Shown: positions 7,939 to 30,348, counted from the first letter of the stretch. The stretch: DNA of 34,243 nt from Chitinophaga pinensis (GCA_945867505.1 CAMBIM010000009.1:1-34243), one strand, 5' to 3'. A program made the numbers and translations. The notes: generated by a model not told the origin, from the letters alone.

Positions 7939-9207
7939 ATGAAATTCGAAAATTCGCTTGCCTTTGCCTGCTCGCTTGATAAACAAGACCCGCTAAAAGA
8001 TTATCGCAAACTGTTCCACATTCCTAAAGTGAACGGCAAAGAAGCTATTTACTTATGCGGCAACTCGCTGGGACTTCAACCCAAAGCGGTAGAAAAACAT
8101 TTAAAGGTTGAATTGGAAGATTGGAAGAACCTGGGTGTAGAAGGACATATACATGGAGAGAACCCATGGCTTTATTATCATCATTTCTTTTCCAAATCAA
8201 TTTCGAAACTGGTTGGAGCGAAAGAAAGCGAAGTGGTAGTAATGAATCAGCTTACGGTTAATTTAAATCTGATGCTGATTTCGTTTTATCGCCCTTCGGG
8301 TAAGCGGAATAAAATTCTGATTGAAGCCAACGAATTTCCTTCTGACTACTACGCCATTGAGCAACAGATAAAACTGCACGGCTTAAATCCGAAAGATTGT
8401 ATAGTTGAAGTAATGCCGCGTAAAGGCGAATTTACTTTGCGCACCGAGGACATTATTTCAAAAATTGCGGAACATAAAAATGAACTGGCATTAGTGATGT
8501 TAAGCGCGGTGAATTATTACACCGGACAGTTTTTTGAAATAAAGAAGATTGCAGATGCCTGCTGCCACCACAAAATAACTTTTGGTGTTGACCTTGCCCA
8601 CGCCATTGGTAATGTGCAGTTGAAACTGCACGAATGGAATGTCGACTTTGCTACCTGGTGCAGTTATAAATACATGAACAGCGGCCCCGGTGGTGTAAGC
8701 GGGGTGTATGTGCATGAGCATCATGCTAAGAATTTTTCATTGCCGCGCTTGGCCGGTTGGTGGGGCAACGATGAAAAAACAAGATTTGAAATGCGCAAGC
8801 ATTTTGTGCCGCAGCCGGGCGCTGCCGGTTGGCAAATTTCCAACGCACCGGTTCTTTCTATGGCTGCTCATAAAGCCTCGCTTGAAATATTTGACAAGGC
8901 AGGAATGAAAGCGTTGAGAAAAAAGAGTGGGTTGCTTACAGGATATTTGGAATGGCTGCTAACAGATAACAGGCAACAGACAACAGACAACAGCGAATAC
9001 AAAATAATTACCCCCAAAGATAAAACCCAACGCGGAGCGCAGCTTTCTATTCAAACAAAAAAGGACGGCAAAAAGCTGTTTCAGAAAATTACCAAATCCG
9101 GAGTAATTGCAGATTGGCGCGAACCGGATGTAATTCGTGTAGCACCGGTGCCGCTTTATAATAAGTTTGAAGAGGTGTGGGAATTTGCGCAGTTGCTTAG
9201 CAAGTAA
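7939..9207 (+). CDS. kynU: Kynureninase
   Basis: 422 aa; YLCGNSLGLQPK, WCSYKYMNSGPGGVSGVYVHE (PLP Lys), RFEMRKHFVPQPGAAGWQISNAPVLSMA, ITPKDKTQRGAQLSI. Confidence 0.95.
   Translation: MKFENSLAFACSLDKQDPLKDYRKLFHIPKVNGKEAIYLCGNSLGLQPKAVEKHLKVELEDWKNLGVEGHIHGENPWLYYHHFFSKSISKLVGAKESEVVVMNQLTVNLNLMLISFYRPSGKRNKILIEANEFPSDYYAIEQQIKLHGLNPKDCIVEVMPRKGEFTLRTEDIISKIAEHKNELALVMLSAVNYYTGQFFEIKKIADACCHHKITFGVDLAHAIGNVQLKLHEWNVDFATWCSYKYMNSGPGGVSGVYVHEHHAKNFSLPRLAGWWGNDEKTRFEMRKHFVPQPGAAGWQISNAPVLSMAAHKASLEIFDKAGMKALRKKSGLLTGYLEWLLTDNRQQTTDNSEYKIITPKDKTQRGAQLSIQTKKDGKKLFQKITKSGVIADWREPDVIRVAPVPLYNKFEEVWEFAQLLSK
8961..8995 (+). repeat. Heptameric tandem repeat AACAGAY x5 inside kynU
   Basis: AACAGAT AACAGGC AACAGAC AACAGAC AACAGCG; encodes LTDNRQQTTDNS. 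Confidence 0.9.
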
Positions 9208-9271
9208 TTGTTAAAAACTAAATGGTATGAATACTTCTAAATAATGCACAAAGCAATTCAACAGAGTTGAG

Positions 9272-10390
9272 TTAGACCTTTTTATAAACATACATCATCT
9301 TCTCTGCAATTGTTTTGCCCGTCATCGTATTTGCATGTGCATAGCCGGCCTCTATCATTTGTGTTTTTAGAGATTCGTTATTCAACACTTTCAATAGTGC
9401 ATCTGCAATTTCTTGTGTAGAAACTGGATTGATGTAAAGAGAGTTTTTGCCACCGGCTTCTTCAAAGCATCCGCCCTTTGTAGCGATAACGGGCACTTTG
9501 CTAAACAGGGCTTCAACAATTGGCATACCAAAGCCTTCGTATAAGCTTGGGAAAACAAACGCACTTGCTGATTTATACAGAGAAGGCAAATCTTCATTCG
9601 ATACATCGGAAAGAATTTTTACGCGTGTTTGTAGATTCTTTTTTACAATCAATGCTTCAATTTCATTCTTCATATTTCCTGCACCGCCAACTAAAACCAA
9701 ATCTTCCTCTATTTTATTTTTAATCCTATCAAATGCATCAATGAGTGTCCGTTGATTTTTACGTGTAAAGAACGAACCGACATTCAAAATATACTTGGCG
9801 GGCAAATTGTATTTCTTTATTTCCGTTGTCTGTTGTGTCCAGTCTGTCGTCTGAAACAAAACATCTACAATTGGGTAAATTACTTCAATTCTCTCTTCCT
9901 TCACTCCATACAACTCCATCAAATCATTTTTCGTTTGGTGGCTTACTGCAATTATTTTATGGGCATGTTTTGTAGCATACTTTGTTTTCAGTTTATAAAT
10001 CTGTCTATCGGCAAACGGATATTGTTCGGTGTGTTTGATAAAGATGAGGTCGTGAATAGTAACAACAGTAGCAAGCGGTGAGTGGTGAGTGGTGAGTGGT
10101 AGTTCATTTGAAAGTCCATGGTAAAAATCAACGCGGTGTTTCTGTAAATCATTTTTTATGCCGAACGAACGCCAAATCGGATGAAACGATTTTTGAAGAT
10201 TTGTTTCAGGCAAAGCAATTTTAAATTGACCGTTTAACTGATTAAAAAATTCCTCTTTTACTTTTGGAGAGAAGAGCAAATATTCTTCGTTCGGAAAGTG
10301 CTGCATGAGCGCATTAAGCAAGTTCCGGGAGTAGTTACCTAAACCCGAACCATTGTTTAACGCCCGTTTAGCATCGAAACCTATCGTCAC
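9272..10390 (-). CDS. Glycosyltransferase family 1 (GT4-type)
   Basis: 372 aa; IGFDAKRALNNGSGLGNYSRNLL, TVVTIHDLIF, KYILNVGSFFTRKNQRTLIDAF, SLYEGFGMPIVEAL. Confidence 0.9.
   Translation of the reverse strand: MTIGFDAKRALNNGSGLGNYSRNLLNALMQHFPNEEYLLFSPKVKEEFFNQLNGQFKIALPETNLQKSFHPIWRSFGIKNDLQKHRVDFYHGLSNELPLTTHHSPLATVVTIHDLIFIKHTEQYPFADRQIYKLKTKYATKHAHKIIAVSHQTKNDLMELYGVKEERIEVIYPIVDVLFQTTDWTQQTTEIKKYNLPAKYILNVGSFFTRKNQRTLIDAFDRIKNKIEEDLVLVGGAGNMKNEIEALIVKKNLQTRVKILSDVSNEDLPSLYKSASAFVFPSLYEGFGMPIVEALFSKVPVIATKGGCFEEAGGKNSLYINPVSTQEIADALLKVLNNESLKTQMIEAGYAHANTMTGKTIAEKMMYVYKKV
9825..9852 (+). repeat. Degenerate heptameric repeat inside the GT1 gene
   Basis: Plus strand GTTGTCT GTTGTGT CCAGTCT GTCGTCT; on the coding strand this is an AGACAAC-type tract, encoding QTTDWTQQTTE. 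Confidence 0.6.
10077..10103 (+). repeat. Heptameric tandem repeat GGTGAGT x3-4 inside the GT1 gene
   Basis: GGTGAGT GGTGAGT GGTGAGT GGTAGT; coding strand ACTCACC, encoding LPLTTHHSPLA. Confidence 0.9.
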
Positions 10391-11139
10391 GAATATTTGA
10401 ATTTAATGGCGCGAAAGTATTTGAGAAATACTTCGCGGCTTAGGTGAAAGCAAATAGTAAAACCAACAGCACCCTCCGTAAAACCAAGCAACAAAAAGTA
10501 AGTACGGATAAACTTAAACGGTGCGCTGAAAATTAATTTGAGCAGCAGCACAAAAACATTTTTGCTTTTTAAATGCTGAGCGCTGATAGTGGCAAACTTC
10601 TCGCGTTGGGCTAAAAACGATTTGTGCGTTGGATAGGTGTTGTGCAAAATATCTCCGGCTAGGTTTTTAATAACTGCTCCTTCGATTAGCTCAAATTTAT
10701 CGTGTGGGTTAATGCCTGTCCAAGCGCCTTTGGTTCTATCCCAAAGGCGAAGTTTTTTATCGGGATACCAACCGCAGGTTTTTATTGGTTTGCCACCGAA
10801 AAAGTTCAATCGATTCATAGCATATCCATCTACATCAAAACTTTGCTTTGCCTTTAAAATTGATTGTGTCAATTCATCGTTTAAAGTTTCATCTGCATCG
10901 ACAGAAAGCACCCAATCGTGATTTGCTTGTGCTTTGGCAAAATTCTTCTGTTGAATATGTCCCTCAAATATATGTTGAATTACCCGCGCACCTTTTGTCA
11001 TTGCAATTTCGATTGTTTTATCTGTAGAAAACGAATCAACCACAATCACTTCATCAGCAACTTGGCGCACAGAATCAATGCATTTGCCGATGTTCTCTGC
11101 CTCATTAAAAGTGATAATGACCACCGAAAGTTTATTCAT
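10387..11139 (-). CDS. Glycosyltransferase family 2 (lipopolysaccharide core WaaE/KdtX-like)
   Basis: 250 aa; VVIITFNEAENIGKCIDSV, VIVVDSFSTDKT, WVLSVDADETL; overlaps GT1 by 4 bp. Confidence 0.88.
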   Translation of the reverse strand: MNKLSVVIITFNEAENIGKCIDSVRQVADEVIVVDSFSTDKTIEIAMTKGARVIQHIFEGHIQQKNFAKAQANHDWVLSVDADETLNDELTQSILKAKQSFDVDGYAMNRLNFFGGKPIKTCGWYPDKKLRLWDRTKGAWTGINPHDKFELIEGAVIKNLAGDILHNTYPTHKSFLAQREKFATISAQHLKSKNVFVLLLKLIFSAPFKFIRTYFLLLGFTEGAVGFTICFHLSREVFLKYFRAIKFKYS

Positions 11140-12376
11140 GCCGGAATTGATTCATTAATACTAAAAGGAAGGTAAGATAAAAGCCTGTGCCTATTTGTTC
11201 TTCTAAAGTTGCTTCTGTGAAAAAGGAGGAAAATAGAATGAGATGAAACACAACGAACATCCAGTTTTTATAATTGCCATTTATCAATAGCGGGAACGAA
11301 AACGCAAAAAGAAAAAGCGCTAAACCGATAATACCTGTAGTTGCCAAAACCCAAATGAGTTGATTATGTGGAAGCTTGTGATCGATATCTTCCAACTGCG
11401 GATAATATTTGCGGTAAAATTTATTCATCTCTGTTTTCAAATCTCCTGCACCAACACCCAGCCAAAAATTTTGTTTCGCAATTTCCAATCCGCCTTGCAT
11501 AGAAACAACTCTTACCCCATCTGAAAGATGGCTGATTTCACCATTCTTAAAAGTATGATAGTCGTATTTCATGTATTCTATTTTATTTTTTAAGCTGGGT
11601 ATAAACTCATACGCGCTATAAGGAAGAGCAACGAACAGCATCATCAAAACAGCGCCCCATAGAAACTTCTTCTGCACAAAAATAAAGCGCAGCAGTAAAA
11701 AAAGCACACCTACATAAAGTGCTAGCAAACTGCTGCGAACAGAAAGTATGTGCAGCACAACAAATAGAAAAACAAGGAGGAAAAGTTGTAGCCATTTTTC
11801 ATTCACACTGAAAAGAAAATATTTCTTCTCCCATAAAAACCAGGAGCAGAAAAATGCGAACGCTATCATAAGCGTATAGCGGATATGGCTGTAGGGCATT
11901 GGTATAGCATTGCCTCGTAAAAACGATTCGGTTATGATGATGTAATTGAAAAAGTAATTAGTGAGAACAACGGCAACACTGATAAAAAGTGTAACAACAA
12001 AACCATAAAGCAGTGCGATGAATTTCCGTTCTTCTAGTTTTTTGATGGAAGCAAAAGCTATTGGCAGGACGAGATAAGGAAGTTTAATGCGCACCCAGTT
12101 CATCCAACTTGTTTTATCTTCTGAATAAATGCCGGAGAGAAAAACTATCAGGAAGAATAAGGGAAGAACTAATAATTCCTTTCGTTGAAAATATTTTTTG
12201 AATGTTTCGCCCGAACCATTATACAAAAGAGATAAAACCAATAGCGCAAACATACCTACGCTTGCTATTGCCCGCGAACAAACAAAACCAACGAAAACAA
12301 GCGTGCAACAAATAACAATCAGCCATTGAAAGTTATCTTCACTCAAAAATCTTTTTATCGTCACGTCTTTGCTCAC
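11132..12376 (-). CDS. O-antigen ligase-like polytopic membrane protein
   Basis: 414 aa with many TM segments and FWLGVGAGDLKTEMNKFY...LPHNQLIWVLATTGIIGLALFL (Wzy/WaaL signature). Confidence 0.85.
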   Translation of the reverse strand: MSKDVTIKRFLSEDNFQWLIVICCTLVFVGFVCSRAIASVGMFALLVLSLLYNGSGETFKKYFQRKELLVLPLFFLIVFLSGIYSEDKTSWMNWVRIKLPYLVLPIAFASIKKLEERKFIALLYGFVVTLFISVAVVLTNYFFNYIIITESFLRGNAIPMPYSHIRYTLMIAFAFFCSWFLWEKKYFLFSVNEKWLQLFLLVFLFVVLHILSVRSSLLALYVGVLFLLLRFIFVQKKFLWGAVLMMLFVALPYSAYEFIPSLKNKIEYMKYDYHTFKNGEISHLSDGVRVVSMQGGLEIAKQNFWLGVGAGDLKTEMNKFYRKYYPQLEDIDHKLPHNQLIWVLATTGIIGLALFLFAFSFPLLINGNYKNWMFVVFHLILFSSFFTEATLEEQIGTGFYLTFLLVLMNQFRHE

Positions 12377-12425
12377 AATTGGCTTTGAAAAAGGATTTTA
12401 ATTTTAAAGCATAAACATAAAACTC

Positions 12426-13304
12426 TTGTCCAACAAAAATTCCATCATCGATTTTAAAACACTTGCCCGCACTATTTCGCTGGTTGAAAACGAAGCAGAA
12501 AATTTTGAAACCATTCTGCAACAACTTCAGCCCCACGATATTCCTGTAATTGGCTTTACCGGTCCACCGGGGGCGGGTAAAAGCACGCTGCTAAACGCTG
12601 TGATTGGTGTTTTATTGGATGAAAAGAAAAAGATAGGTCTTGTTTTAGTTGACCCTTCTTCGCCCTTCAATCTCGGAGCTTTGCTAGGCGACCGCCTGCG
12701 TATGAGCACTCATTTTACTAACGAGAATCTTTTTATCCGTTCGGTAGCCAGTCGCGGTTCGCTGGGTGGATTGAGCGATAAGATAATTGAAGTGTTAGAA
12801 GTAATGCGCAGCTATGAATTTGATTACATTTTTATTGAAACCGTTGGGGTGGGACAAAGCGAAGTGGAAATTGCGGGGCTTGCCGATACCACCGTTGTTG
12901 TTCTTGTTCCGGAATCGGGAGATTCTGTTCAAGCTATGAAGGCCGGACTGATGGAAATTGCTGATGTGTTTGTCATCAACAAAGCCGACCGTGCAGATGC
13001 AGAGGCGTTAGCAAACTCACTCCAGCATCAATTGCATATTAGTGGAAGAGTAAACATTCCGGTTCTAAAAACTGTGGCAGTAGAAGCAAAAGGAGTGAAA
13101 GAATTGATTGCTGAAATTTCTGTGCGAAAAGAATCAATGGAAAACGCCAACAGAAAATCTATTCTGCTTACCGAAAAGGCGTTGCGCATCATCTCTAAAA
13201 GTAAAATGAAGAATTTTGACAAAGCTGAATTGAGGGCTATATTGACCAGGGAGATGAATGACCCGCACTTTAATCTTTACAGTTTTGTGAAGCAATATTT
13301 ATAG
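12426..13304 (+). CDS. meaB: Methylmalonyl-CoA mutase-associated GTPase MeaB (ArgK family); TTG start
   Basis: GFTGPPGAGKSTLLNAV, LVLVDPSSPFNLGALLGDRLRM, IETVGVGQSEVE, VINKADRADA. No in-frame ATG upstream before a stop. Confidence 0.88.
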   Translation: MSNKNSIIDFKTLARTISLVENEAENFETILQQLQPHDIPVIGFTGPPGAGKSTLLNAVIGVLLDEKKKIGLVLVDPSSPFNLGALLGDRLRMSTHFTNENLFIRSVASRGSLGGLSDKIIEVLEVMRSYEFDYIFIETVGVGQSEVEIAGLADTTVVVLVPESGDSVQAMKAGLMEIADVFVINKADRADAEALANSLQHQLHISGRVNIPVLKTVAVEAKGVKELIAEISVRKESMENANRKSILLTEKALRIISKSKMKNFDKAELRAILTREMNDPHFNLYSFVKQYL

Positions 13305-13343
13305 GTTTCAAACGACTTACCACCAAAGTAAATTTCAGAATCA

Positions 13344-14189
13344 ATGAAGGACAGGAACATAATTATTACTGGTGGCAACGCAGGGATAGGCCTAGCAACT
13401 TCTATTGCTTTGGCAAAACAAGGTGCAAATATCTATATCGTGTCGCGCAATAACGACAAGGCAGAGGAGGCAGTAAAAACCATTGTTGCTGAAAGCGGGA
13501 ACAAGAGTGTAAAATATTTTGTTGCCAATCTTTCTTCGCAAAAATCGGTTCGCAAACTGACTTCAGAAATTAAGAATGAGATGAGTGTGGTGGATGTGCT
13601 CATCAACAATGCCGGTGGAACTTTTTGTGATTTTACTTTGAGCGAAGATGGTTTGGAAATGACCATTGCCACTAATCATTTTGCTTATTTCCTGCTAACC
13701 AATCTTCTACTTGAACTGATTAAAAAATCTGACTTTGCTCGTATAATAAACGTTGCCTCTGGTTCGCATTACAAAGGCAAGATGGATTTTGAGTCATTTA
13801 CCAAAAAGAAAAATTACTTCATTATGAAGGCTTACGAACAAAGCAAACTGGCTAATGTGCTTTTTACTAATGAACTTGCCGAGAGATTAAAAGGAACAAA
13901 CGTTAGCGTAAACAGTTTGCACCCGGGTTTTGTAAAAACACATATCGGGAATAAAAACGCAACTTGGTATTCAGATTTGTTCTGGTCTGTAGCAACAACA
14001 CTTGGAGCAATAAGTGTTGAAGACGGAGCGAAAACATCTGTGTATTTAGCTTCATCACCCGAAGTGAAAAACGTTACGGGAAAATACTTTGACAAGTGCA
14101 AAGAGAAAAAACCTGCCCCGCTGGCATTAGATAAAGAACTGGGCAAACAACTCTGGAAAAAGAGCGAGCAACTCTGCCCGATTGCTTAG
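13344..14189 (+). CDS. Short-chain dehydrogenase/reductase (SDR) family
   Basis: IIITGGNAGIGLATSIAL (TGxxxGIG), LINNAGG, YEQSKLANVLFT (YxxxK). Confidence 0.9.
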   Translation: MKDRNIIITGGNAGIGLATSIALAKQGANIYIVSRNNDKAEEAVKTIVAESGNKSVKYFVANLSSQKSVRKLTSEIKNEMSVVDVLINNAGGTFCDFTLSEDGLEMTIATNHFAYFLLTNLLLELIKKSDFARIINVASGSHYKGKMDFESFTKKKNYFIMKAYEQSKLANVLFTNELAERLKGTNVSVNSLHPGFVKTHIGNKNATWYSDLFWSVATTLGAISVEDGAKTSVYLASSPEVKNVTGKYFDKCKEKKPAPLALDKELGKQLWKKSEQLCPIA

Positions 14190-14195
14190 CGCAAA

Positions 14196-14225
14196 TTTGA
14201 TTTCTAAAGAATAATTCTACTTTTG
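14196..14225 (+). promoter_or_regulatory. Putative Bacteroidota-type promoter (-33 TTTG / -7 TACTTTTG) for the SlyD-like gene
   Basis: TTTG at 14196-14199, 18-bp spacer, TACTTTTG at 14218-14225, matching the known Bacteroidota TTTG...TAnnTTTG consensus. Confidence 0.55.
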
Positions 14226-14303
14226 ATTTTGTTAGAGAACGAACGTTTTCACTGCTGAAATCTTCTCTCCTCTCACGTATTTTATCATTCCAAAAACAAA
14301 AAG

Positions 14304-14810
14304 ATGAAGGCAGCGCCAAATACAGTTGTAAAACTAACTTATGAATTAAGAAACGAGCCGAACGGACAGGTAATGGACGCTGCGGACAAAGAAAGTCCGT
14401 TTGCGTTTTTGTTCGGACACGGAAATGTCTTAGATAAATTTGAAAAAAATCTTGAAGGTTTAATTGCGGGAAACCAATTCAATTTTGAATTGAGTGCCGA
14501 AGATGGCTATGGCGAATACGATGAACAAGCTGTAATTCAATTAGACAAAAATGTTTTTGCTGTTGATGGTAAAGTGCAGGACGAAATGTTGTTCGTAGGT
14601 AACGTAGTTCCTTTACAAGACCAAAACGGAAATCCTTTTCAAGGAAGAATTGTAAATATCATTTTAGATAAAGTAACTGTTGATTTGAATCATCCATTTG
14701 CCGGCAAGACGCTTTTATTCAGCGGAGAAGTTGTTGAAGTGCGGGAAGCACATCCGGTGGAGTTAGAGCATGGTCATGTTCACGAGCATGGAGATCACTC
14801 TCATCATTAA
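14304..14810 (+). CDS. slyD: FKBP-type peptidyl-prolyl cis-trans isomerase, SlyD-like
   Basis: 168 aa; FLFGHGNVLDKFEKNLEGL, DVNHPFAGKTL-like VDLNHPFAGKTL, His-rich tail HGHVHEHGDHSHH. Confidence 0.88.
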   Translation: MKAAPNTVVKLTYELRNEPNGQVMDAADKESPFAFLFGHGNVLDKFEKNLEGLIAGNQFNFELSAEDGYGEYDEQAVIQLDKNVFAVDGKVQDEMLFVGNVVPLQDQNGNPFQGRIVNIILDKVTVDLNHPFAGKTLLFSGEVVEVREAHPVELEHGHVHEHGDHSHH

Positions 14811-14812
14811 TC

Positions 14813-14844
14813 GTCTCTCCTAAATCCTATCCGAAGGAGAGGAC
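14813..14844. terminator. Hairpin between convergent slyD-like gene and hisIE; possible bidirectional terminator
   Basis: GTCTCTCCT...AGGAGAGGAC (7 bp perfect CTCTCCT/AGGAGAG plus a bulge) in a convergent intergenic gap. Confidence 0.5.
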
Positions 14845-14856
14845 TTTAAATAAAAA

Positions 14857-15453
14857 TCACTTTTTACGGGCTTCAAGTTTTGCAATTACGTCCTGCAACT
14901 TGAAGCCTTTTGCTTGAATTAATATCAAGTAATGAAAGAGTAAGTCTGCCGATTCATTTAGAAATAAATCATTGTTGCTGTCTTTCGATTCTATAACCAT
15001 TTCTATTGCCTCTTCACCAACTTTTTGCGCAACCTTATTAATGCCTTCTGCAAAGAGCTTTGAAGTATATGAGTCTTGAGCAGGAGAATTTTTCCGAATT
15101 TCAATAGTTTGCTCTAACTCCAAAAGAAAACGCAATTCATCCTTTCCATTTTTTTCATTCCAGCATGTTTCAGCACCAGTATGGCAAACTGCACCAACCG
15201 GATTTACCTTAATGAGAAGCGTGTCATTGTCGCAATCTATGTGCATAGAAACTACATTCAGATAGTTGCCGCTTTCTTCGCCCTTCGTCCATAAACGATT
15301 TTTTGTTCGGCTGAAAAAAGTAATGCACCTTTCGTTCTGTGTCTTCTGAAAAGCTTCTTCGTTCATAAAGCCCAACATCAAAACTTTATTGGTTATAGCA
15401 TCTTGAATAATGGCAGGAACGAGTCCGTTCCCTTTGGCAAAATCTATCTTCAT
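14857..15453 (-). CDS. hisIE: Bifunctional phosphoribosyl-AMP cyclohydrolase / phosphoribosyl-ATP pyrophosphatase
   Basis: [10 protein letters not shown]...[35 protein letters not shown], then [14 protein letters not shown]...[10 protein letters not shown]. Confidence 0.95.
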
Positions 15454-16202
15454 AATCTTACTGTTATTCCTTTTTGATGTAAATAGTTTTTCAAATTGTT
15501 GATTCCGATTTCTTTAAAATGAAAAATGCTGGCAGCTAAAGCCGCATCTGCTTTTCCATAGGTAAACGTATTATAGAAATGCTCCATCGTTCCAGCGCCA
15601 CCAGAAGCAATAACCGGTATATTGACCGTTTCTGAAAGTTGCTGCAAAGCTTCATTCGCAAAACCATTTTTTGTTCCATCATGGTTCATAGAAGTAAAGA
15701 GAATTTCACCAGCTCCGCGTTGCTCTCCTTCTTTTGCCCATTCAAACAAAACTAGTTCAGTTTCTAATCTTCCTCCGTTTAAATACACTTTCCAATTCGT
15801 TGTTTGTTTCGCGTCTATAGCCAACACCAAACATTGACTCCCAAATTTCTCAGCAATGTCCGAAATCAATTTCGGATTTCGGACTGCTGCCGAATTCAAA
15901 GAAATTTTATCTGCCCCACTTTGAAGTAAAGCATAGACGTCTTCTACAGTCGAAATTCCACCGCCAACAGTAAAGGGAATATTGATGGTGGCAGCTATCC
16001 GTTCCACTAAAGCAACAAGCGTTTTTCTTTTTTCGTGTGTAGCCGTAATATCCAAAAACACTAACTCGTCTGCCCCTTCATCTGTATATATTTTTGAAAG
16101 CTCCACCGGGTCACCGGCATCGCGCAGGTTTTCAAAGTTCACACCCTTTACGGTGCGCCCGTCTTTAATATCTAAGCATGGAATAATTCGTTTGGCTAAC
16201 AC
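15450..16202 (-). CDS. hisF: Imidazole glycerol phosphate synthase subunit HisF
   Basis: [52 protein letters not shown]. Confidence 0.96.
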
Positions 16203-16919
16203 TCAATTAAATTTTGACAAATCTACCAATGAAATTCTCCCTTCATAAATCGCCTTCCCGATAATTGCTCCGTGTAAACCGGTTTCGCTCAAAACATTCA
16301 ATTCATTTAAATCACTTACTCCACCACTTGCAATTAATTTTAGAGATGGAAATTGTTGAAGAATTTTTTTATAGAGAGAAATCGAAGAGCCTTGCAACAT
16401 TCCATCTTTTGCTATGTCGGTGCAGATGACATACTGAATTCCATGAGCCACATAATCTTTCAAAAATCCGAAGAGATTGATGCTGCTGTTTTCCTGCCAT
16501 CCACTCACTGCTATCATTTCATCTTTTACATCGGCTCCCAGAATAATTTTTTCTGCTCCGTATTTATCTAGCCAACGCAAAACAGTGTAGCGCGATTTAA
16601 CAGCAATACTTCCCGCAGTAATTTGTTGTGCACCTGAATCGAAAGCGATTTTTATATCCTCATCGGTTTTTATTCCTCCACCAAAATCTATCTTGAGTTT
16701 TGTTTGCGAACTGATTGTTTGCAAAGTTTTATAGTTAACAATATGACTTGCCTTTGCTCCGTCTAAATCTACCAAGTGCAATCGTTGTAAACCGGCTGCT
16801 TCAAATTGTTTGGCAACCTCCAATGGATTCTCATTGTAAATGATCTTCTGCGCGTAATCGCCCTGTGAAAGGCGCACACATTTTCCGTCTATAATGTCTA
16901 TGGCAGGAATTATTTCCAT
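16203..16919 (-). CDS. hisA: Phosphoribosylformimino-5-aminoimidazole carboxamide ribotide isomerase
   Basis: [54 protein letters not shown]. Confidence 0.96.
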
Positions 16920-21838: not shown

Positions 21839-22053
21839 AATTGTTTTGTATCGTTCAAAAAAGGTTGACTGATGTAGTAAAAGTAAATATTTAAAGAATC
21901 TCGAGAGTTGATACATCTTTAGGCTCTTTTCCCATAATTTTGCAGATATAATATGATAGCCTATTACTTTCTTCCTGTAGGAGCTAAATTCCTATCCCTT
22001 GCATGGAGAAGAAAGAATGGTCAATTCGTTCTTGATTATTTGACTTTATTTAA

Positions 22054-22070
22054 TAAGCAATAGTTGCTTA
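22054..22070. other. Perfect inverted repeat TAAGCAA-TAG-TTGCTTA overlapping the rng stop codon
   Basis: 7-bp arms, 3-nt loop; the rng stop (minus strand TAA) lies within the right arm. Confidence 0.6.
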
Positions 22071-23618
22071 GTCAATCTTTATCTCCTCATCGTTATCATC
22101 AAAAAACTTGTAATCGGTGATTCCCAGTGTTTCGCTTGGGTTAATCGAAATCCATTTTTTGTGTTTAAAGAACCACTTGGTGCGCAGCGAAGGGAATCCT
22201 TTACGAAGGTAAGCACCAACTATCGGGTGGCAATACAAGGTCAATTTTGCATGCGTTGTCAACAGGTGCGTTAAATCACTTTCAATAGTATCTAATAACA
22301 AGAGCGATGAAGTAATTTCTCCGGTGCCGCCACAGGTAGGGCAGCTTTCGGTGGTAGCAATATTTATTTCGGGGCGCACACGTTCGCGCGTAATCTGCAT
22401 AAGGTTGAACTTCGAAAGTGGAAGAATGGTATGTGTAGCGCGATCGCTATCCATAATCTCTTTCATTTTATTTTGCAAGTCCTTCTTGTTATCCTGATTT
22501 TTCATGTCGATAAAATCGATAACAATAATGCCACCCAAATCGCGCAGACGAAGTTGCCGTCCAATTTCTTCAGCCGCCTCCATGTTTACTTTCAGCGCAT
22601 TGGTTTCCTGCGTGCCATCTACACTGGTGCGGTGACCGCTGTTTACATCAATTACGTGGCAGGCCTCAGTCTTCTCTATAATAATATAACTGCCATTAGG
22701 CATGTTCACCGTTTTGCCGAACGAAGCTTTAATCTGTTTGGTAATTCCGTAATGGTCGAAAATAGGCGCAGTGCCGTTATAGCGTTGAACAATATCTTTT
22801 TTCTCGGGTGCGTTTAGTGTAATGTAATCTTCAATTTCCTTAGCCAGTTTTACATCGTTGGTTACAATTTTGTTGAATTGCGGAGAAAGCAAATCGCGGA
22901 GAATACCCGTGGTTTTGTTCATCTCGCTTAGCACTTTAGTAACCGGCACAGCCCCCTTCAGGTTGCGCATCATTTCCTGCCACTTGTTTTGCAGTTGCAA
23001 TAAATCCTGATGAAGCTCTGCCGCATTTTTACCAGCAGCCACGGTTCTTACAATTACACCAAAGTTCTTAGGCTTCAGGCTTTCTACCAACACCTTCAAT
23101 CGTTTGCGCTCTTCTGCCGAATCAATTTTTTTAGAAACCCCCACCGAATCGTTGAAAGGAACAAGAACCAAAAACCGTCCTGCCAAAGAAATCTCGCAAG
23201 TCAATCGCGGGCCTTTGGTAGATATCGGTTCTTTAAGAATTTGCACCAATAAATGGTTCTTGCTTTGCAACACCTCCTTTACGTTACCGGTTTTTACAAT
23301 TTCTTTCTGCATGTCAAACCCGTTCAGCATTTGCTCGGGTGAAACGTTTCCCGCCACACATTGTGTGGTAAATTTCATTACCGAACGAATATCGGGGCTC
23401 AAATCGGTGTAGTGCAAAAAGGCATCTTTTTCGTGCCCTACCTCAATAAATGCCGCGTTTAAGCCGGGCATTATCTTCTTAATCTTTCCAAGGTAAATAT
23501 CACCAACCGTAAATTGGTTGCTGCTTCTGTCCTGATGCAGTTCGGTCAGGTACTTGTTTTCTAACAAAGCAATATCAATCCCCTCGGGGCTTGAATCAAT
23601 AATCAGTTCTTTGTTCAC
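22068..23618 (-). CDS. rng: Ribonuclease E/G family protein
   Basis: 516 aa; VGDIYLGKIKKIMPGLNAAFIEVGHEKDAFLHYTDLS (S1), VIDVNSGHRTSVDG, GGIIVIDFIDMK, CPTCGGTGEI. Confidence 0.94.
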   Translation of the reverse strand: MNKELIIDSSPEGIDIALLENKYLTELHQDRSSNQFTVGDIYLGKIKKIMPGLNAAFIEVGHEKDAFLHYTDLSPDIRSVMKFTTQCVAGNVSPEQMLNGFDMQKEIVKTGNVKEVLQSKNHLLVQILKEPISTKGPRLTCEISLAGRFLVLVPFNDSVGVSKKIDSAEERKRLKVLVESLKPKNFGVIVRTVAAGKNAAELHQDLLQLQNKWQEMMRNLKGAVPVTKVLSEMNKTTGILRDLLSPQFNKIVTNDVKLAKEIEDYITLNAPEKKDIVQRYNGTAPIFDHYGITKQIKASFGKTVNMPNGSYIIIEKTEACHVIDVNSGHRTSVDGTQETNALKVNMEAAEEIGRQLRLRDLGGIIVIDFIDMKNQDNKKDLQNKMKEIMDSDRATHTILPLSKFNLMQITRERVRPEINIATTESCPTCGGTGEITSSLLLLDTIESDLTHLLTTHAKLTLYCHPIVGAYLRKGFPSLRTKWFFKHKKWISINPSETLGITDYKFFDDNDEEIKID

Positions 23619-23698
23619 AATAAATAATTTAATCCCGCACAGGGCAGGATGTTGAAAAATTCGGTAAGGTAGGTCCGAGTAAAGTAAAGGAATGAAGT

Positions 23699-23745
23699 GC
23701 GTTAGCGATACGCGGGATGAGTGAAGGCACCCCGCGCATCAACGC
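23699..23745 (-). other. Strong RNA hairpin in the gap between the 29-aa ORF and rng
   Basis: Inner stem 23707-23716/23731-23740 (10 bp with one G-U on the minus strand), outer stem GCGTT 23699-23703 / AACGC 23741-23745, 3-nt bulge 23704-23706; no U-tract after it. Confidence 0.65.
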
Positions 23746-23751
23746 GAAGAA

Positions 23752-23841
23752 TTACTTCTTCTTGTGACGGTTCTTTCTCAAACGTTTTTTGCGTTTGTGG
23801 GTAGCAATCTTATGACGTTTTCTCTTTTTTCCGCAAGGCAT
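23752..23841 (-). CDS. 29-aa highly basic micro-protein (candidate ribosome-associated protein)
   Basis: Translation MPCGKKRKRHKIATHKRKKRLRKNRHKKK*; below the ORF-track size cutoff; located between the TPR gene and rng on the same strand. Confidence 0.75.
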   Translation of the reverse strand: MPCGKKRKRHKIATHKRKKRLRKNRHKKK

Positions 23842-23868
23842 GGCTCGTGTTTTATTGTTTCTAAATGG

Positions 23869-24705
23869 TTAGCCGTTAGGCTTTTTAATACTCTGTATGT
23901 AATTCTCAATTTCCTTCTTCGCCTTAGGGTCGCTAACTGTTTTTTTGCAGCGTTCCAGCATTTCTACTGCCTTTGTCTTGTTTCCCTGTCCGTTGTAAGC
24001 TTCTGCTAACATCAGTAGCGCTTCGGAATTTTGAGGTCGCAAATATAAAATTTTTTCTAAGCGCGCAATGGCTTTATCATACTGCCCTGAAATTATCCCG
24101 AATCTGCCCAGCATTAACAGGGCATCTACATTGGTAGAATCCTGCCTAACAATTTCCAGCAAAATAGAAACTCCCTGCATGGGCGCACCGCCATTTTCCA
24201 TAAAAGCACCTGCCAAACGTATTTTGTTGTTGGTATTAGTAGAGTCTAAATCAACTGCTTTTTGGTAGCACGAAACCGCGTTGCTGCTCAAAAAATTCTT
24301 GGCTTTTTCGTCAGGTGCGGTTTGCATGAGCATGGTGTTGTAATCGCCAGCACCTATATAAGAATCTGCGGTGTTTTCCTTTTCTGCCAGCTTAATGGCA
24401 TAGTAAGCAATGGCAATAGGCTTGTCCAGTTTCTGATACTCTGTAATTACTTCTTTATAAGAACCCGCTTGAAGTAGCTTCTCGATTTTTGCCTGTGTTG
24501 CCTTATCAGCAATTTTGGAGTTGGTCTCCCTTATATATTGTTCAATATCTAAACTTTCGTGAGCGTGTTGTTCCTCTTGCTTCATAGCAGGTTGTGTGCC
24601 ATCGGCTGTTTTTTCGGGTTTAGTCTTTTTAGTATCAGCAAAAAGATATATGCCAAAGCAAAGCACGGCACAAAGGGAAACGACAATGATTTGATTTCTA
24701 GTCAT
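23869..24705 (-). CDS. Tetratricopeptide repeat protein with N-terminal membrane anchor
   Basis: 278 aa; IIVVSLCAVLCFGIYLFA anchor; TPR-like VDALLMLGRFGIISGQYDKAIARLEKILYLRPQNSEALLMLAEAYNGQGNKTKAVEMLERC. Confidence 0.85.
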   Translation of the reverse strand: MTRNQIIVVSLCAVLCFGIYLFADTKKTKPEKTADGTQPAMKQEEQHAHESLDIEQYIRETNSKIADKATQAKIEKLLQAGSYKEVITEYQKLDKPIAIAYYAIKLAEKENTADSYIGAGDYNTMLMQTAPDEKAKNFLSSNAVSCYQKAVDLDSTNTNNKIRLAGAFMENGGAPMQGVSILLEIVRQDSTNVDALLMLGRFGIISGQYDKAIARLEKILYLRPQNSEALLMLAEAYNGQGNKTKAVEMLERCKKTVSDPKAKKEIENYIQSIKKPNG

Positions 24706-24718
24706 AATATAAAACGAA

Positions 24719-24749
24719 AATAGGTTTACGAACTTGCCGCAAACCTATT
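24719..24749 (-). terminator. Hairpin downstream of the HU gene
   Basis: AATAGGTTT (24719-24727) / AAACCTATT (24741-24749), 9-bp perfect stem, 13-nt loop; followed on the minus strand by TTCGTTTTATATT. Confidence 0.5.
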
Positions 24750-24773
24750 CCTAAATTTGTATTGACGAAAAAT

Positions 24774-25103
24774 TTATTCCCCTTCTTCGGGTTGACCTTG
24801 CGGATGCGGCTCTTGACCGGGTATTAAGTGTTTTTTAACCTGATCCATAAAAATTTGTGCTGGCTTAAAGGCAGGAATGTAATGCTCAGGGATAACTACC
24901 GTTTCGTTTCGGGTTATAATTCTGCCTAACTTTTGTGCGCGTTTTTTAGGAATAAAACTTCCAAAGCCTCTTACGTATACACTCTCCCCGCTTTTTACTT
25001 GATTCTTTACTTCCTTAAAAAATGCTTCTAAGGTTATTAGTACATCGGTTTTAGGAACACCTGTTACATCTGCGATTTTACTTACTATGTCAACTTTTCT
25101 CAT
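24774..25103 (-). CDS. HU/IHF family DNA-binding protein
   Basis: MRKVDIVSKIADVTGVPKTDV...GESVYVRGFGSFIPKKRAQKLGRIITRNETVVIPEHYIPAFKPA. Confidence 0.93.
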   Translation of the reverse strand: MRKVDIVSKIADVTGVPKTDVLITLEAFFKEVKNQVKSGESVYVRGFGSFIPKKRAQKLGRIITRNETVVIPEHYIPAFKPAQIFMDQVKKHLIPGQEPHPQGQPEEGE

Positions 25104-25198
25104 ACGCTTGGGTTTAGATTTAGTGCAAATTATAATTCTTGTATAAAGGTGGCAAATATTTTTTCAAACAAAAACTTTCTTCTTTGCTACACAATTTG

Positions 25199-26257
25199 AT
25201 GAAAAACAAATCTTTCGCTACAATCTTACTTAACTGGCATAAAGAAGAAAACACGCGTGAGATGCCGTGGAAGGGAGAAAAAAATCCGTATTACATCTGG
25301 TTGAGCGAAATTATTTTGCAGCAAACGAGGGTGGAGCAGGGCTTGCCTTATTTTTTGCGCTTCAAACAAAAATACCCTACTGTAAAAGATTTGGCGAACG
25401 CTAAAGAAGATGATGTAATGAAGTTGTGGCAAGGCTTGGGTTATTATTCTCGCGCTAGAAATTTGCATGAAACGGCTAAGAACGTTCAGCAGAATTTTAA
25501 AGGAAAATTTCCGGAAACATTTGATGAATTGAAGACGCTAAAAGGCGTGGGCGATTATACTGCCGCTGCCATTGCCTCGTTTGCGTTTGGCGAAAACAAG
25601 GCAGTGGTAGATGGAAATGTAATTCGCGTGTTGGCTCGCGTGTTAGGGGTTGAAACTGCGTTTGATACGACCGAAGGCAAAAAGAAATTTGCGCAACTGG
25701 CGCGAGAGTTAATTGACGAAAAAAATCCTGCTGCATACAATCAAGCCATCATGGATTTTGGCGGAGTGGTTTGCTCGCCCAAAAATCCGAAGTGTGAAGA
25801 TTGTCCGTTTACGAGAATTTGTGTGGCAAAAAATCATGAGTTGATTGAACAACTTCCGTATAGGGAGAAGCGAACAAAAATCACCAACCGCTACTTTAAT
25901 TATCTATTAATAAAGAGCGATAAGGAAATTGTAATTAGAAAAAGAACGGGAAACGATATTTGGCAAAACCTTTACGAATTGCCGATGATTGAAACGCCAA
26001 AAACCTTGAAGAAGGGTTTTGCAGAAGCCATTGTCAAGCAGCTTGGCACAAAACAATTTGCTATTAAATCGTATTCGGAAGAAACTACTCAACTGCTTTC
26101 ACACCGCAAAATTCATTTTCGATTTATTGAAGTGGAGTTGACTGATTTTAAATCATTCTCATTGGCAAATGCTCAGAAAGTAAAGCTGAACGCACTTTCT
26201 AAATTCGCCTTTCCAAAAACACTACACTTGTATTTACTTGAAAAGTCCTTATTTTAG
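25199..26257 (+). CDS. mutY: A/G-specific adenine glycosylase
   Basis: Likely start MKNKSFATILLNWH within ORF 25139..26257; MPWKGEKNPYYIWLSEIILQQTRVEQGLPYF, GVGDYTAAAIASFAF, VVDGNVIRVLARVLG, Fe-S CxxxxxxCxxCxxxxxC. Confidence 0.95.
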   Translation: MKNKSFATILLNWHKEENTREMPWKGEKNPYYIWLSEIILQQTRVEQGLPYFLRFKQKYPTVKDLANAKEDDVMKLWQGLGYYSRARNLHETAKNVQQNFKGKFPETFDELKTLKGVGDYTAAAIASFAFGENKAVVDGNVIRVLARVLGVETAFDTTEGKKKFAQLARELIDEKNPAAYNQAIMDFGGVVCSPKNPKCEDCPFTRICVAKNHELIEQLPYREKRTKITNRYFNYLLIKSDKEIVIRKRTGNDIWQNLYELPMIETPKTLKKGFAEAIVKQLGTKQFAIKSYSEETTQLLSHRKIHFRFIEVELTDFKSFSLANAQKVKLNALSKFAFPKTLHLYLLEKSLF

Positions 26258-26293
26258 ACTTCTACAAATTATATCACAACAAAATTCAGAGTC

Positions 26294-26728
26294 ATGGTTA
26301 ACAAAGTATTTCTTATAGGCAGATTGGGCAAAGACCCGGTTGTAAAACATTTCGATAACGGTGGCGCAATTGCCGAATTTACCGTTGCTACGGATGATAG
26401 TTACAAAGACAAACAAGGCAACAAAGTAGAGCAGACTGATTGGCACAACGTAAAAATTCCTACACCTAAGTTAGCCGAGGTAGCAGAAAAATATTTGAAG
26501 AAAGGCAGCTTGGTTCACATAGAAGGCAAAATAAAAACGCGTTCTTATGATGATAAAGACGGCAACAAACGCTACGTAACCGAAGTAGTTTGCGAAGGCT
26601 TTAAAATGCTCGATAGCAAAAAAGATTCTGCCGGTGGTGGAAATTATTCTTCATCATCTAACACTTCATCCTCCAATCAGGAAGCTCCGGCAACTACATC
26701 TGCTGCCGATGACGATTTACCTTTTTAA
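26294..26728 (+). CDS. ssb: Single-stranded DNA-binding protein
   Basis: MVNKVFLIGRLGKDPVVKHF...IEGKIKTRSY, acidic C-terminal tip DDDLPF. Confidence 0.95.
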   Translation: MVNKVFLIGRLGKDPVVKHFDNGGAIAEFTVATDDSYKDKQGNKVEQTDWHNVKIPTPKLAEVAEKYLKKGSLVHIEGKIKTRSYDDKDGNKRYVTEVVCEGFKMLDSKKDSAGGGNYSSSSNTSSSNQEAPATTSAADDDLPF

Positions 26729-26738
26729 TTTTTTAGCC

Positions 26739-26778
26739 AATACCAAGTGGTGAGAAATATTTCTCACCACTTGGTATT
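26739..26778. terminator. Perfect 40-bp palindrome between ssb and gldE
   Basis: AATACCAAGTGGTGAGAAAT|ATTTCTCACCACTTGGTATT, 20-bp arms, no mismatches and no spacer. Confidence 0.8.
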
Positions 26779-26792
26779 TACCACTCTCCAAT

Positions 26793-28139
26793 ATGGACTC
26801 TCCCGTCAGTTTGCAAATTATTCATCAGGCGCTTTTAAACGCGCCCACTACTTCTGTTTTTGTTGCCAACGGTATTATTCTGGTTATGATTTTTTGCTCA
26901 GCAGTAATGTCTGCCACTGAAATTGCTTACTTCTCGTTGAGCAATGTAGAAGTAGATTCGCTACGCGAAAGCGAAGATGCAGCGGATAACCGCGTGGGCA
27001 AGTTGCTGGATAATTCGCGGTATCTGCTTTCAACAATTCTTATCAGCAATAACTTGGTGAACATTGGCGTGGTGGTTACTTCTTATTATGTAACCAAGCG
27101 CATGTTCAACTTTCAGGATTTTGCTTTCGGCACTTTTCTACTTCCCGGTTACGCCATCGAATTTATTTGGAACGTTTTGATTGTTACTTTTTTCCTGGTG
27201 CTGTTTGGCGAAGCCACACCAAAAGTTTATGCCACACACAACAAAGTAAAAATTGCGCGAGCCATGAGCGGCTTTTTAAACATACTGGTAAAAGTGATGC
27301 AACCGGTAAACTTTCTTTTAGTTGGCGGAACGCAATCCATAGAAAAGCGATTAAAACGCCACAATGCAGAAATTGATATTGAAGAAATAAATAAGGCTAT
27401 TGAAATTACGGTAGAGAAAAAAGAATCTAAGCAAGATGCCAAGTTGTTGAAAGGAATAGTTCACTTCGGAAACATTATGGTGAAGCAGGTCATGCGCCCG
27501 CGCACCGATGTAATTTCGCTCGATTATGATTTCAACTTTAACGAGCTAATGGCTTTTGTAAGAGAGAATGGCTATTCGCGTTATCCGGTTTTTAAAGAAA
27601 ATCCCGATAACGTAGTGGGCGTGCTGAACATAAAAGATTTGATTGAGCATTTGAATCAAGATGAAAGTTTTGGTTGGCAGAGTATGGTGCGCGAACCTTT
27701 CTTTGTGCCGGAAACAAAAAAGATTGATGACTTGTTGCGCGAAATTCAACAGAACAGAAAACACTTGGCGGTGGTGGTAGATGAATACGGTGGCACCTGC
27801 GGCATTATTACGCTGGAAGATATTGTAGAAGAAGTAGTGGGCGATATTACCGATGAGTTTGATGAAGCAACTGAAACCGGTTTCCGAAAAATTGATGACA
27901 AGAATTTTTTGTTTGATGGAAAAACTCCGTTGACCGATGCTTGCCGCTTAATGGAAATAGAACTTGATACGTTTGAAGAAATAAAAGGCGAATCGGAATC
28001 CCTTGCAGGTTTAATACTTGAAATTGCCGGACGCATTCCTAAAAATGGCGAAGAGTTGCGAATGAATAATTACAAATTCGCCATCATATCGGTGTTGAAT
28101 AATAGAATTGAAAAAGTGAAAATCACGAATGAGGTATAG
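26793..28139 (+). CDS. gldE: GldE, CNNM/HlyC-type transporter family (DUF21 + CBS pair + CorC domain)
   Basis: 448 aa; MSATEIAYFSLSNVE, VKQVMRPRTDVISLD, AVVVDEYGGTCGIITLEDIVEEVVGDI; located ssb-gldE-gldD. Confidence 0.88.
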   Translation: MDSPVSLQIIHQALLNAPTTSVFVANGIILVMIFCSAVMSATEIAYFSLSNVEVDSLRESEDAADNRVGKLLDNSRYLLSTILISNNLVNIGVVVTSYYVTKRMFNFQDFAFGTFLLPGYAIEFIWNVLIVTFFLVLFGEATPKVYATHNKVKIARAMSGFLNILVKVMQPVNFLLVGGTQSIEKRLKRHNAEIDIEEINKAIEITVEKKESKQDAKLLKGIVHFGNIMVKQVMRPRTDVISLDYDFNFNELMAFVRENGYSRYPVFKENPDNVVGVLNIKDLIEHLNQDESFGWQSMVREPFFVPETKKIDDLLREIQQNRKHLAVVVDEYGGTCGIITLEDIVEEVVGDITDEFDEATETGFRKIDDKNFLFDGKTPLTDACRLMEIELDTFEEIKGESESLAGLILEIAGRIPKNGEELRMNNYKFAIISVLNNRIEKVKITNEV

Positions 28140-28770
28140 AAATACAAGTTGGCAGTTGGCAGCTGACAGTTGGCAAAGATTTGTTGCTTGTATTTTATTG
28201 CCTATTGCGTATTGCCTATTGCTTACTGGCTGCCATGGCGATTACTCTCCTAAACAAAAAGCATATCCTCGAGTAATTTATCCTGAACGGGAATACGAAA
28301 TGTATGATCCCGCCGAATGTCCGTTTAAATTTGAAAAGCCGGTTTACGCGCAAGTAGCTCGGGACACCACTTACCTTGGCAAAAGATTGACCAGCGACCA
28401 GTGTTGGTTGAACGTTTATTTTCCTGCACTTAACGGAGTGGTGAATCTTACTTATAAAGACATTAATGACACAATGAATCTGGAACGCTTGGTAGAAGAT
28501 GCACACAAAATGGCTTTTAAGCACACCAAAAAAGCAAACTACATTGATGAGATAAAAATTGATAACGCGCATGGCGTTGGAGGAATACTTTACGATTTAG
28601 GTGGAGATGCTGCCAGCAATGTTCAGTTTTTCTTGACCGATAGCAATCGTCACTTTATACGTGGTGCACTTTACTTTTACAGTCCGCCAAATGCCGACAG
28701 CATGGCACCCGTTCTTGATTTTGTAAAAGCTGATGTAAAACAAATGCTGAAAACGTTTGAGTGGAAGTAG
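28129..28770 (+). CDS. gldD: Gliding motility-associated lipoprotein GldD
   Basis: 213 aa; lipobox LLLTGC, YSPKQKAYPRVIYPEREYEMYDPAECPFKFEKPVYAQV, follows gldE with an 11-bp overlap. Confidence 0.88.
   Translation: MRYRNTSWQLAADSWQRFVACILLPIAYCLLLTGCHGDYSPKQKAYPRVIYPEREYEMYDPAECPFKFEKPVYAQVARDTTYLGKRLTSDQCWLNVYFPALNGVVNLTYKDINDTMNLERLVEDAHKMAFKHTKKANYIDEIKIDNAHGVGGILYDLGGDAASNVQFFLTDSNRHFIRGALYFYSPPNADSMAPVLDFVKADVKQMLKTFEWK
28147..28174 (+). repeat. Heptameric tandem repeat AGTTGGC x4 at the 5' end of gldD
   Basis: AGTTGGC AGTTGGC AGCTGAC AGTTGGC; encodes part of SWQLAADSWQR. Confidence 0.9.
28196..28230 (+). repeat. Heptameric tandem repeat TATTGCC x5 encoding the GldD signal-peptide core
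   Basis: TATTGCC TATTGCG TATTGCC TATTGCT TACTGGC; encodes LPIAYCLLLTG of the lipoprotein signal peptide. Confidence 0.9.
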
Positions 28771-28809
28771 ACAGATGTTTGCAGCAATAGAAGTAAATCA
28801 ATTCGACTA

Positions 28810-29199
28810 ATGCTAGGTAAATTTGCCTTAAATTCTAAGTTGCTATTTCTCATAGACAGTTTAGGTGCATTTGTTACAGCAGTTCTTGTTGGTTCTGTTT
28901 TAACAAGGCTTGAAGATTCTTTTGGAATGCCGAAAAAAGCACTCAACTATTTATCCTTAGTTGCTTACCTGTTTTCTACTTACTCAATTTCTTGTTATTT
29001 CTTTAGTGGTAAAAATTGGCAACCCTATCTAAAAGCAATTGCAGTTGCGAATATTATTTATTGCATTGTTACCATTGGACTTGTATGTTACTTCTACCCA
29101 ATATTGACAGTTTTAGATTTGATTTATTTTGGAACCGAACTGGTAATAGTAGGTAGTTTAGTAGCTATAGAGTTAAAGGTAGCGACTAGTAAATTTTAA
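28810..29199 (+). CDS. Hypothetical small integral membrane protein
   Basis: 129 aa with about four hydrophobic segments; no recognised family. Confidence 0.6.
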   Translation: MLGKFALNSKLLFLIDSLGAFVTAVLVGSVLTRLEDSFGMPKKALNYLSLVAYLFSTYSISCYFFSGKNWQPYLKAIAVANIIYCIVTIGLVCYFYPILTVLDLIYFGTELVIVGSLVAIELKVATSKF

Positions 29200-29229
29200 G
29201 AATAGCTTCAGGGCGCTTTAACTTATAAC

Positions 29230-30348
29230 CTATTCCTCTATAAAAAGCGAAGCCGCAATAGAATCGGCAAACAACTTTCCTTCTTCAGTCAATTTCAAAA
29301 TATCGTTTTCGAGTAAGTAATGAGAGGAGTCAATTCCTTTCATACTCTCTAGTATTTCATTCCTAATTCCTACTTCATAATTCATAATTCCCAACCCCCA
29401 TTGAGTGCGGAGCGAAGTCATTATTTTCTCATTCACTTTTTGCACTTCGGTCAATACCTCTTCCTCAAACAAAATTTTGCCAGCGTTAATGCTCTTGATG
29501 TAGTTTACATTGTTCGCAACATTCCATCTTCTTGAATTCCCATCAAAAGAATGTGCTGATGGGCCAAGCCCTAAATATTTTTTACTGAGCCAGTAGTTGG
29601 TGTTGTGAACTGCATACATTCCATTACAAGCAAAGTTGGAGATTTCGTATTGCTCAAAATTATGCGCGCGCATTTCGTTCATCAGCATTTTTAACTGCCC
29701 TGCCGATTGCACCTCATCAACAGCTTTTGATTCGCCTTTTCCAATTCGCTTTTCTAAAGATGTTTTTGCTTCTACCGTTAAAGCATATGAGGAAATATGC
29801 GGAACGCTTAATGAGAAAGCCGTGTCCAAATTCTGCTTCCATTTATCATCGTTCATGGTTGGTGTGCCGTAAATTAAATCTATAGTTATGTTTTCAAAAC
29901 CGGCATCCTGCACACGCTTAACAGACGAAAGTGCTTCATCGGAGTTATGCGCGCGGTTCATGTATCTCAAATCTTCATCGAAAAAAGATTGGATTCCGAT
30001 AGAAAAACGGTTTACACCCAGCGTTCCTATTTGCTTAATGAGTTCCGCATCTTTTAGATCATCTGGATTGGTTTCGATGGTAAATTCTCTAAGTTCATTC
30101 AAATCATAAACTGATAGAAGTTTCGCTGTTATCAATCTTAAATCTTCAATTTTTAAATGCGAAGGAGTTCCTCCACCCAAATAGATGGTTTCAATTTTTT
30201 CACCCGCTAAGTAATCTTTACTCAATTCTATTTCTTTCAGCAATGCTTTAATGAAATTGTCTTTATTGCCCAGTGAAGTGCTGAAATAGAAATTGCAATA
30301 ATGGCAAGCCTGCTTACAAAAAGGGATATGAATATAAATGCCTGCCAT
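29230..30348 (-). CDS. hemW: HemW-like radical SAM protein (coproporphyrinogen III oxidase-like / heme chaperone)
   Basis: Likely start MAGIYIHIPFCKQACHYCNFYFSTSL within ORF 29230..30414; CxxxCxxC, IETIYLGGGTPS, IGIQSF, YEISNFA, YLGLGPSAHSF. Confidence 0.93.
   Translation of the reverse strand: MAGIYIHIPFCKQACHYCNFYFSTSLGNKDNFIKALLKEIELSKDYLAGEKIETIYLGGGTPSHLKIEDLRLITAKLLSVYDLNELREFTIETNPDDLKDAELIKQIGTLGVNRFSIGIQSFFDEDLRYMNRAHNSDEALSSVKRVQDAGFENITIDLIYGTPTMNDDKWKQNLDTAFSLSVPHISSYALTVEAKTSLEKRIGKGESKAVDEVQSAGQLKMLMNEMRAHNFEQYEISNFACNGMYAVHNTNYWLSKKYLGLGPSAHSFDGNSRRWNVANNVNYIKSINAGKILFEEEVLTEVQKVNEKIMTSLRTQWGLGIMNYEVGIRNEILESMKGIDSSHYLLENDILKLTEEGKLFADSIAASLFIEE
29359..29393 (+). repeat. Heptameric tandem repeat (ATTCCTA/ATTCATA) x5 inside hemW
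   Basis: ATTCCTA ATTCCTA CTTCATA ATTCATA ATTCCCA; coding strand encodes LGIMNYEVGIRNE. Confidence 0.9.

Follow-up and report, generated by a model that had tools for sequence, protein, structure and literature searches.

Why should protein-coding DNA repeat itself every seven nucleotides, when seven is not a multiple of three and the gain or loss of one unit would shift the reading frame? The question is raised by a 34,243-nucleotide stretch of Chitinophaga pinensis (GCA_945867505.1, CAMBIM010000009.1:1-34243; the whole stretch is called the window here), in which a sequence-only reading had recognized six such heptad tracts inside kynU, a glycosyltransferase (GT) gene, gldD and hemW, and had taken them for members of one family with different units. 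We find that period-7 tracts are in strong excess, that related genomes hold tracts at the same sites, that the units change in concert at nearly constant length, that the strand read follows protein context, and that abundance is patchy among genomes. Concerted unit change with length and frame intact suggests that these genomes have a process that copies DNA seven bases at a time.

The excess of period-7 tracts is real. The window's genome (G000; other G numbers are relatives' genomes used for comparison) is a fragmented draft of 2.94 Mb in 309 contigs, 74% complete; the relatives' sequences are draft metagenome assemblies, and the closest named relatives are uncultured Bacteroidetes metagenome-assembled genomes, for which isolate names would suggest fresh water, a guess on which nothing here depends. 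In the window four period-7 runs exceed the threshold, versus 0.0 in shuffles, and no runs do so at periods 2-6 or 8-11. Across 812 kb sampled from G000, 44 period-7 runs stand against 0-5 at each period that is not a multiple of 7, periods 14 and 21 being also present as multiples; in heptad-rich genomes strong enrichment is found only at period 7 (and 14). The 655 predicted G000 genes hold 33 tracts; reshuffling synonymous codons leaves a mean of 0.5 (maximum 2), and shuffling the codon order leaves 0. The outcome that would have undone the sequence-only reading, tracts no more frequent than in shuffled controls, is therefore not what we see, and genome sampling bears out a genome-wide family with different units. 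The 7-nucleotide periodicity also crosses reading frames and is abolished by synonymous reshuffling; therefore, selection on the protein cannot create the period.

All six tracts of the window were recovered, five of them solid and called by Tandem Repeats Finder and one (9825-9852) weak and decayed, and, as had been proposed, none creates a stop codon (ORF, open reading frame; lag-7, identity at a lag of seven nucleotides):

8961..8995, + strand: AACAGAY period-7 tract in kynU (ORF 7939-9207, +); lag-7 23/28.
9825..9852, - strand: decayed AACAGAC-like tract in the gene of a GT4-type glycosyltransferase (ORF 9272-10390, -); lag-7 13/21.
10074..10103, - strand: ACTCACC (coding strand) tract at glycosyltransferase site A, residues 97-106, LPLTTHHSPL; lag-7 17/20.
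28147..28175, + strand: AGTTGGC tract in gldD (ORF 28129-28770, +), n-region of the lipoprotein signal peptide; lag-7 17/21.
28196..28230, + strand: TATTGCC tract in gldD, hydrophobic core of the same signal peptide (LLPIAYCLLLTGC); lag-7 22/28.
29359..29393, - strand: AATTATG/AATTAGG (coding strand) tract in hemW (ORF 29230-30414, -), residues 342-352; lag-7 23/28.

At these and other orthologous sites, the same codons hold different units in different species. Six same-genus relatives carry units at GT site A other than the ACTCACC of G000 (coding strand; ACTCAGC in G017, ATTCCGA in G003, CTTCGGA in G015, ACTCGTC in G014 and CATCGGA in G009 among them), at equal length except for one extra codon in G014, and more distant relatives show no period at the same length. 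In hemW the same codons, in one register and at equal length, read GGAATGC in G003, GATTTCG in G011 and G004, and GGTTGCA in G007; the first gldD site (28147-28175) holds AGTTGGC in the G012 ortholog and CAAAGTT in G003. Different heptads occupy one site of HisS across 17 genomes (residues 85-95 of 473) and one of NadE across 18 (residues 250-260 of 546), the NadE region varying in length as well, with G017 exactly 21 nucleotides shorter than G000. Within a trio of relatives whose DNA is ~87% identical (G003, G014 and G015), coding tract pairs mostly differ in length by 0 or +/-3 nucleotides, and two non-coding pairs by exactly 7. The idea that the tracts are clean insertions does not survive these comparisons as a general rule: at most of the sites compared, tract-bearing and tract-free orthologs are equal or nearly equal in length, and GT site A and hemW show no length change against tract-free orthologs. 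Nor is the kynU tract unique to G000, its AACAGAC being matched at equal length by AAATCAG in G015 and AAGTCCG in G014.

The units of one tract change together. At three sites, with registers set by hand, within-tract lag-7 identity averages 0.74-0.83 versus 0.13-0.35 at neighbouring lags, and identity between species over the same columns is 0.44-0.56. Fourfold-degenerate sites of the trio differ by 0.33-0.37 and codon positions 1 and 2 by 0.04-0.06; the two clearest trio tracts diverge between species by 0.38 and 0.39 and internally by 0-0.15. Since tract divergence is close to the fourfold value and within-tract divergence is low, the units drift at about the neutral rate but homogenize faster than they diverge. 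Mixed tracts, such as the two GGAATGC units followed by two GGAATTC units in the GT gene of G003, or the AATTATG/AATTAGG tract of hemW in the window, are unit conversions caught half-way.

We therefore consider it probable, though well short of assured, that the tracts are old period-7 microsatellites whose units are homogenized by one-step 7-nucleotide misalignment copying, with selection for frame. In such a model, tracts would mostly be old and vertically inherited, lying in surface loops, linkers and signal peptides, where nearly any sequence will do provided that its character is right. Point mutations would enter at about the neutral rate, and a replication- or repair-linked misalignment by exactly one 7-nucleotide step would copy a mutation from one unit into its neighbours, making the units change as one. 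Within genes, length outcomes would survive only if net-zero or in-frame; in non-coding DNA +/-7 changes would appear as well. The homogenizing step itself would be slippage or misaligned-template copying able to act without a frameshifted intermediate, and a 7-nucleotide step would agree with the published hypothesis that it mirrors how much DNA the polymerase grips (Mrazek et al. 2007, as presented in PMC4692102 and PMC4679880). Several points weigh against this account. Unit recurrence between loci, partly genome-specific, is not predicted by local slippage alone; two other trio tracts, with divergences of 0.47 and 0.82 and more internal divergence, look more like replacement than drift; the trio's intergenic density, 186 per Mb, exceeds its coding density, 38 per Mb, but the corresponding G000 values are 33 and 45; few independent comparisons of tract length are possible; and the detection thresholds were chosen after inspecting the data.

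A bolder version, possible but doubtful, would have a fixed-7-nucleotide-step replication or repair process overwrite DNA in place without length change, switched among close species by a genetic factor, with inter-locus copying giving each genome its unit dialect. The distribution of tracts is uneven. In 100-kb samples from the same genus we find 10 tracts in G017 and 0 in G008, G006 and G004; beyond the genus, two family members have 0, G031 has 1 and the order-level relative G047 has 5, with several heptamer arrays (L245-L249) of up to about 130 nucleotides, far longer than those of G000. Counts of AACRGAC dimers separate G000, G003, G011, G014, G015, G016 and G017 from the rest of the genus. 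G004-G006, G008, G010, G012 and G013 count as heptad-poor, but such genomes are not empty (a perfect GAAATTC array lies in HisS of G008). The presence of MutS, DinB/IMS or reverse transcriptase does not track heptad abundance, so none of them serves as the determinant. Period-7 arrays also occur in contigs of Chloroflexi, Desulfuromonadales and Patescibacteria; one Desulfuromonadales contig and the unclassified bacterium AUK048 (L099 and L092) are exceptionally rich in tracts, with 7 and 12, respectively, in 21 kb each.

Ordinary +/-7 slippage through transient OFF alleles would be a cycle resembling phase variation: a gained unit shifts the frame, losing another unit later brings it back, and the cycling homogenizes the units with no net length change. 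We regard this explanation as unlikely. It would suit the +/-7 differences of non-coding tracts and the 21-nucleotide deficit of NadE in G017, and heptanucleotide phase variation is known from the high-molecular-weight adhesins of Haemophilus (PMC8262952, PMC2424069). The tracts, however, are not concentrated in surface or virulence genes: HisS, NadE, PanC (two tracts), LpxB, RimP and the pyruvate dehydrogenase E2 component carry them, as do lipoate ligase, an LpxH-like protein and LolA1. HisS and NadE are normally essential. HisS and full-length NadE occupy one locus per genome, with an open frame in every genome; paired HisS matches are pieces of one locus, and weak second NadE matches belong to a different, shorter amidase-like protein. 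In genes of this kind, LpxB among them, that are apparently single-copy and that the cell cannot normally do without, a stable +/-7 intermediate is difficult to credit: a frameshift should be lethal, unless polyploidy masks it. Among the HisS and NadE matches across the genomes compared no frameshifted tract allele was seen, and the between-species comparison revealed no frameshifted allele produced by repeat-number variation.

Two further features of these genes were observed. The hisS loop (L288-L304) has two length classes, 111 and 117 nucleotides, scattered across the genus, which suggests allele exchange or old polymorphism. In G015 a 27-nucleotide hairpin element resembling repetitive extragenic palindromes (TCCCG...CGGGATGAAACA) stands beside heptad tracts in L313 (nadE) and in L267 at about 15510-15540, once in frame inside nadE; G014 and G003 are without it at these places.

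Units do recur between loci. At unrelated loci they are identical in 2.3% of cases versus 0.25-0.34% for random heptamers, a recurrence 6 to 15 times the random level, and G000 has 18 locus pairs with an identical unit, compared with 0.9 expected. Identity is higher within than between genomes (3.8% vs 1.6%, permutation p = 0.001). A threefold AACAGAC array is found in 4 of 396 Bacteroidota genomes and at nine places of G000 (a reversed pattern is no valid control for such a search, being a rotation of the same repeat), and in G015 both GT sites share one unit on opposite strands. All this would be expected if a tract were rewritten from another heptad locus, through a trans-acting process, be it template switching, ectopic conversion or the work of a specialized enzyme, each genome thereby acquiring a unit dialect. 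The mobile micro-repeat suggested by the sequence-only reading may or may not lie behind the recurrence. Yet no shared flanks exist to guide a same-length replacement, mean unit distance is equal within and between genomes (2.81 vs 2.82), and either lineage-specific mutational preference or inter-locus copying would give unit recurrence; as the principal process, copying between loci seems to us quite improbable. Hairpin avoidance was also considered as a general rule for units and set aside, folding being weaker than in shuffled units within the genus and not in other phyla.

Protein context sorts the tracts by strand. With a detection threshold of 13 and genes called by a simple longest-ORF rule, 34 of the 36 period-7 tracts of G000 lie within predicted coding sequence, and the trio has 24 coding and 11 non-coding tracts. 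In a set of 65 coding tracts from five genomes, those near the N-terminus tend towards pyrimidine-rich units and hydrophobic peptides (mean hydropathy 0.91), those inside the protein towards purine-rich units and hydrophilic peptides (-1.13; p about 1e-4), a pattern that would flip if the opposite strand were read: in signal peptides GTCTGTT is translated as LSVVCCLL, and in loops its complement, AACAGAC, as TDNRQQTT. This sorting looks like a selection filter acting on a mutational product. The earlier view that tracts are frame-compensated and sit in tolerant protein stretches is supported. That selection for a functional 7-residue peptide period maintains the DNA period is very improbable: period-7 DNA always yields such a peptide period, and strand orientation does follow hydropathy, but the orthologs' peptides differ, outgroup orthologs of equal length lack the period, and the loss of the DNA period on synonymous reshuffling marks selection as a filter and not a creator. 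To chance, assembly artefact or a by-product of codon usage we give next to no credence, fragmented though the G000 draft is, given that many independent assemblies show different units at the same sites and shuffles yield almost none.

The window's own tracts illustrate these contexts. That of kynU encodes TDNRQQTTDN within the KYNU_C domain, the product carrying a kynureninase C-terminal domain. The enzyme previously labelled GT1 is a glycosyltransferase, but of GT4 type by its domains (Glyco_transf_4 and Glycos_transf_1). Its tract at 9825-9852 (site B) lies in an inter-domain linker, residues about 186-196, and has no Tandem Repeats Finder call; it is a tract in decay, since an almost perfect ACAACGG array occupies the orthologous codons in G016, a sister genome, and GAAGTCC occurs there in G015 and G014. 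An AlphaFold model built on only eight sequences would place site B in a low-confidence linker (predicted local distance difference test score of 59 in block 181-190) and site A at a short helix and loop. The gldD product is the GldD lipoprotein; the remaining host is a radical-SAM protein by Pfam, which we take to be HemW, following the sequence-only reading and general knowledge. Elsewhere in the window, a two-copy ATTTCGG repeat (15869-15883) in a hisF-like ORF (15450-16202) is possibly an early or lost heptad, and lysine/alanine-rich type repeats at 33089-33208, with periods of 12, 15 and 21 (multiples of three), are unrelated to heptads.

Heptamers have a history in bacteria. In many genomes of scattered phylogeny, the long units of simple sequence repeats are most often seven nucleotides in length, and polymerase-linked slippage has been proposed (Mrazek et al. 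2007, as presented in PMC4679880 and PMC4692102). The G000 tracts, being tandem 7-nucleotide units longer than chance, belong with these repeats; yet, as far as those accounts go, coding tracts there tend to favor units divisible by three, whereas here most tracts lie in genes, essential ones among them, and orthologs differ by a concerted change of units with little change in length. The comparison with the short tandemly repeated repetitive sequences of filamentous cyanobacteria (Calothrix; PMC4692102) holds for the tandem 7-nucleotide unit, with several families per genome, and no further, coding location and orthologous turnover not being described for them in the accessible literature. 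The TAACTGA repeats of Beggiatoaceae, cyanobacteria and five Bacteroidetes (PMC4679880) share the tandem heptamer and a patchy distribution, being absent from close relatives of two of the Bacteroidetes, and their coding copies, comparably, fall mostly at protein peripheries. In them, however, a single unit dominates, as a rule placed immediately before a start codon, and related units are rarely repeated; our tracts differ in unit, lie mostly within genes, and are not members of that group (MacGregor 2015). GGGAATC and GGGGAYT repeats of Xanthomonas and Nostoc likewise recur at matching positions in close relatives and vary extensively in length and sequence, yet are G-rich, quadruplex-forming and strongly non-coding (PMC4692102). 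Borg tandem repeats also evolve fast within reading frames, where the protein regions that they encode are often disordered, but the length of an in-gene unit is always a multiple of three, and the units are almost unique (PMC9879509). The heptanucleotide elements of Geobacter metallireducens, within and between genes (PMC2700814), and the (GATAGRA)n of Chloroflexus (PMC6749651) similarly have many loci with one 7-nucleotide unit; these are single-unit families for which no orthologous unit turnover is shown. Our literature search agreed with the sequence-only reading in finding no mechanism described for such repeats in Bacteroidota; nonetheless, the phenomenon is not wholly undescribed, since heptameric excess in bacteria has already been published (PMC4692102, PMC4679880). 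What is new, as far as could be found in mostly open literature, is that the tracts concentrate in coding sequence and that, at orthologous sites, their units turn over in concert without length change.

The long-standing puzzle of why bacteria favor a 7-base unit for their long microsatellites thus becomes testable, with many orthologous sites in close species, a genus that offers both heptad-rich and heptad-poor genomes for genetic comparison, and essential genes in which simple frameshifting slippage should be lethal. Our findings illustrate that a mutational process can supply protein loops and signal peptides, selection merely picking the strand.

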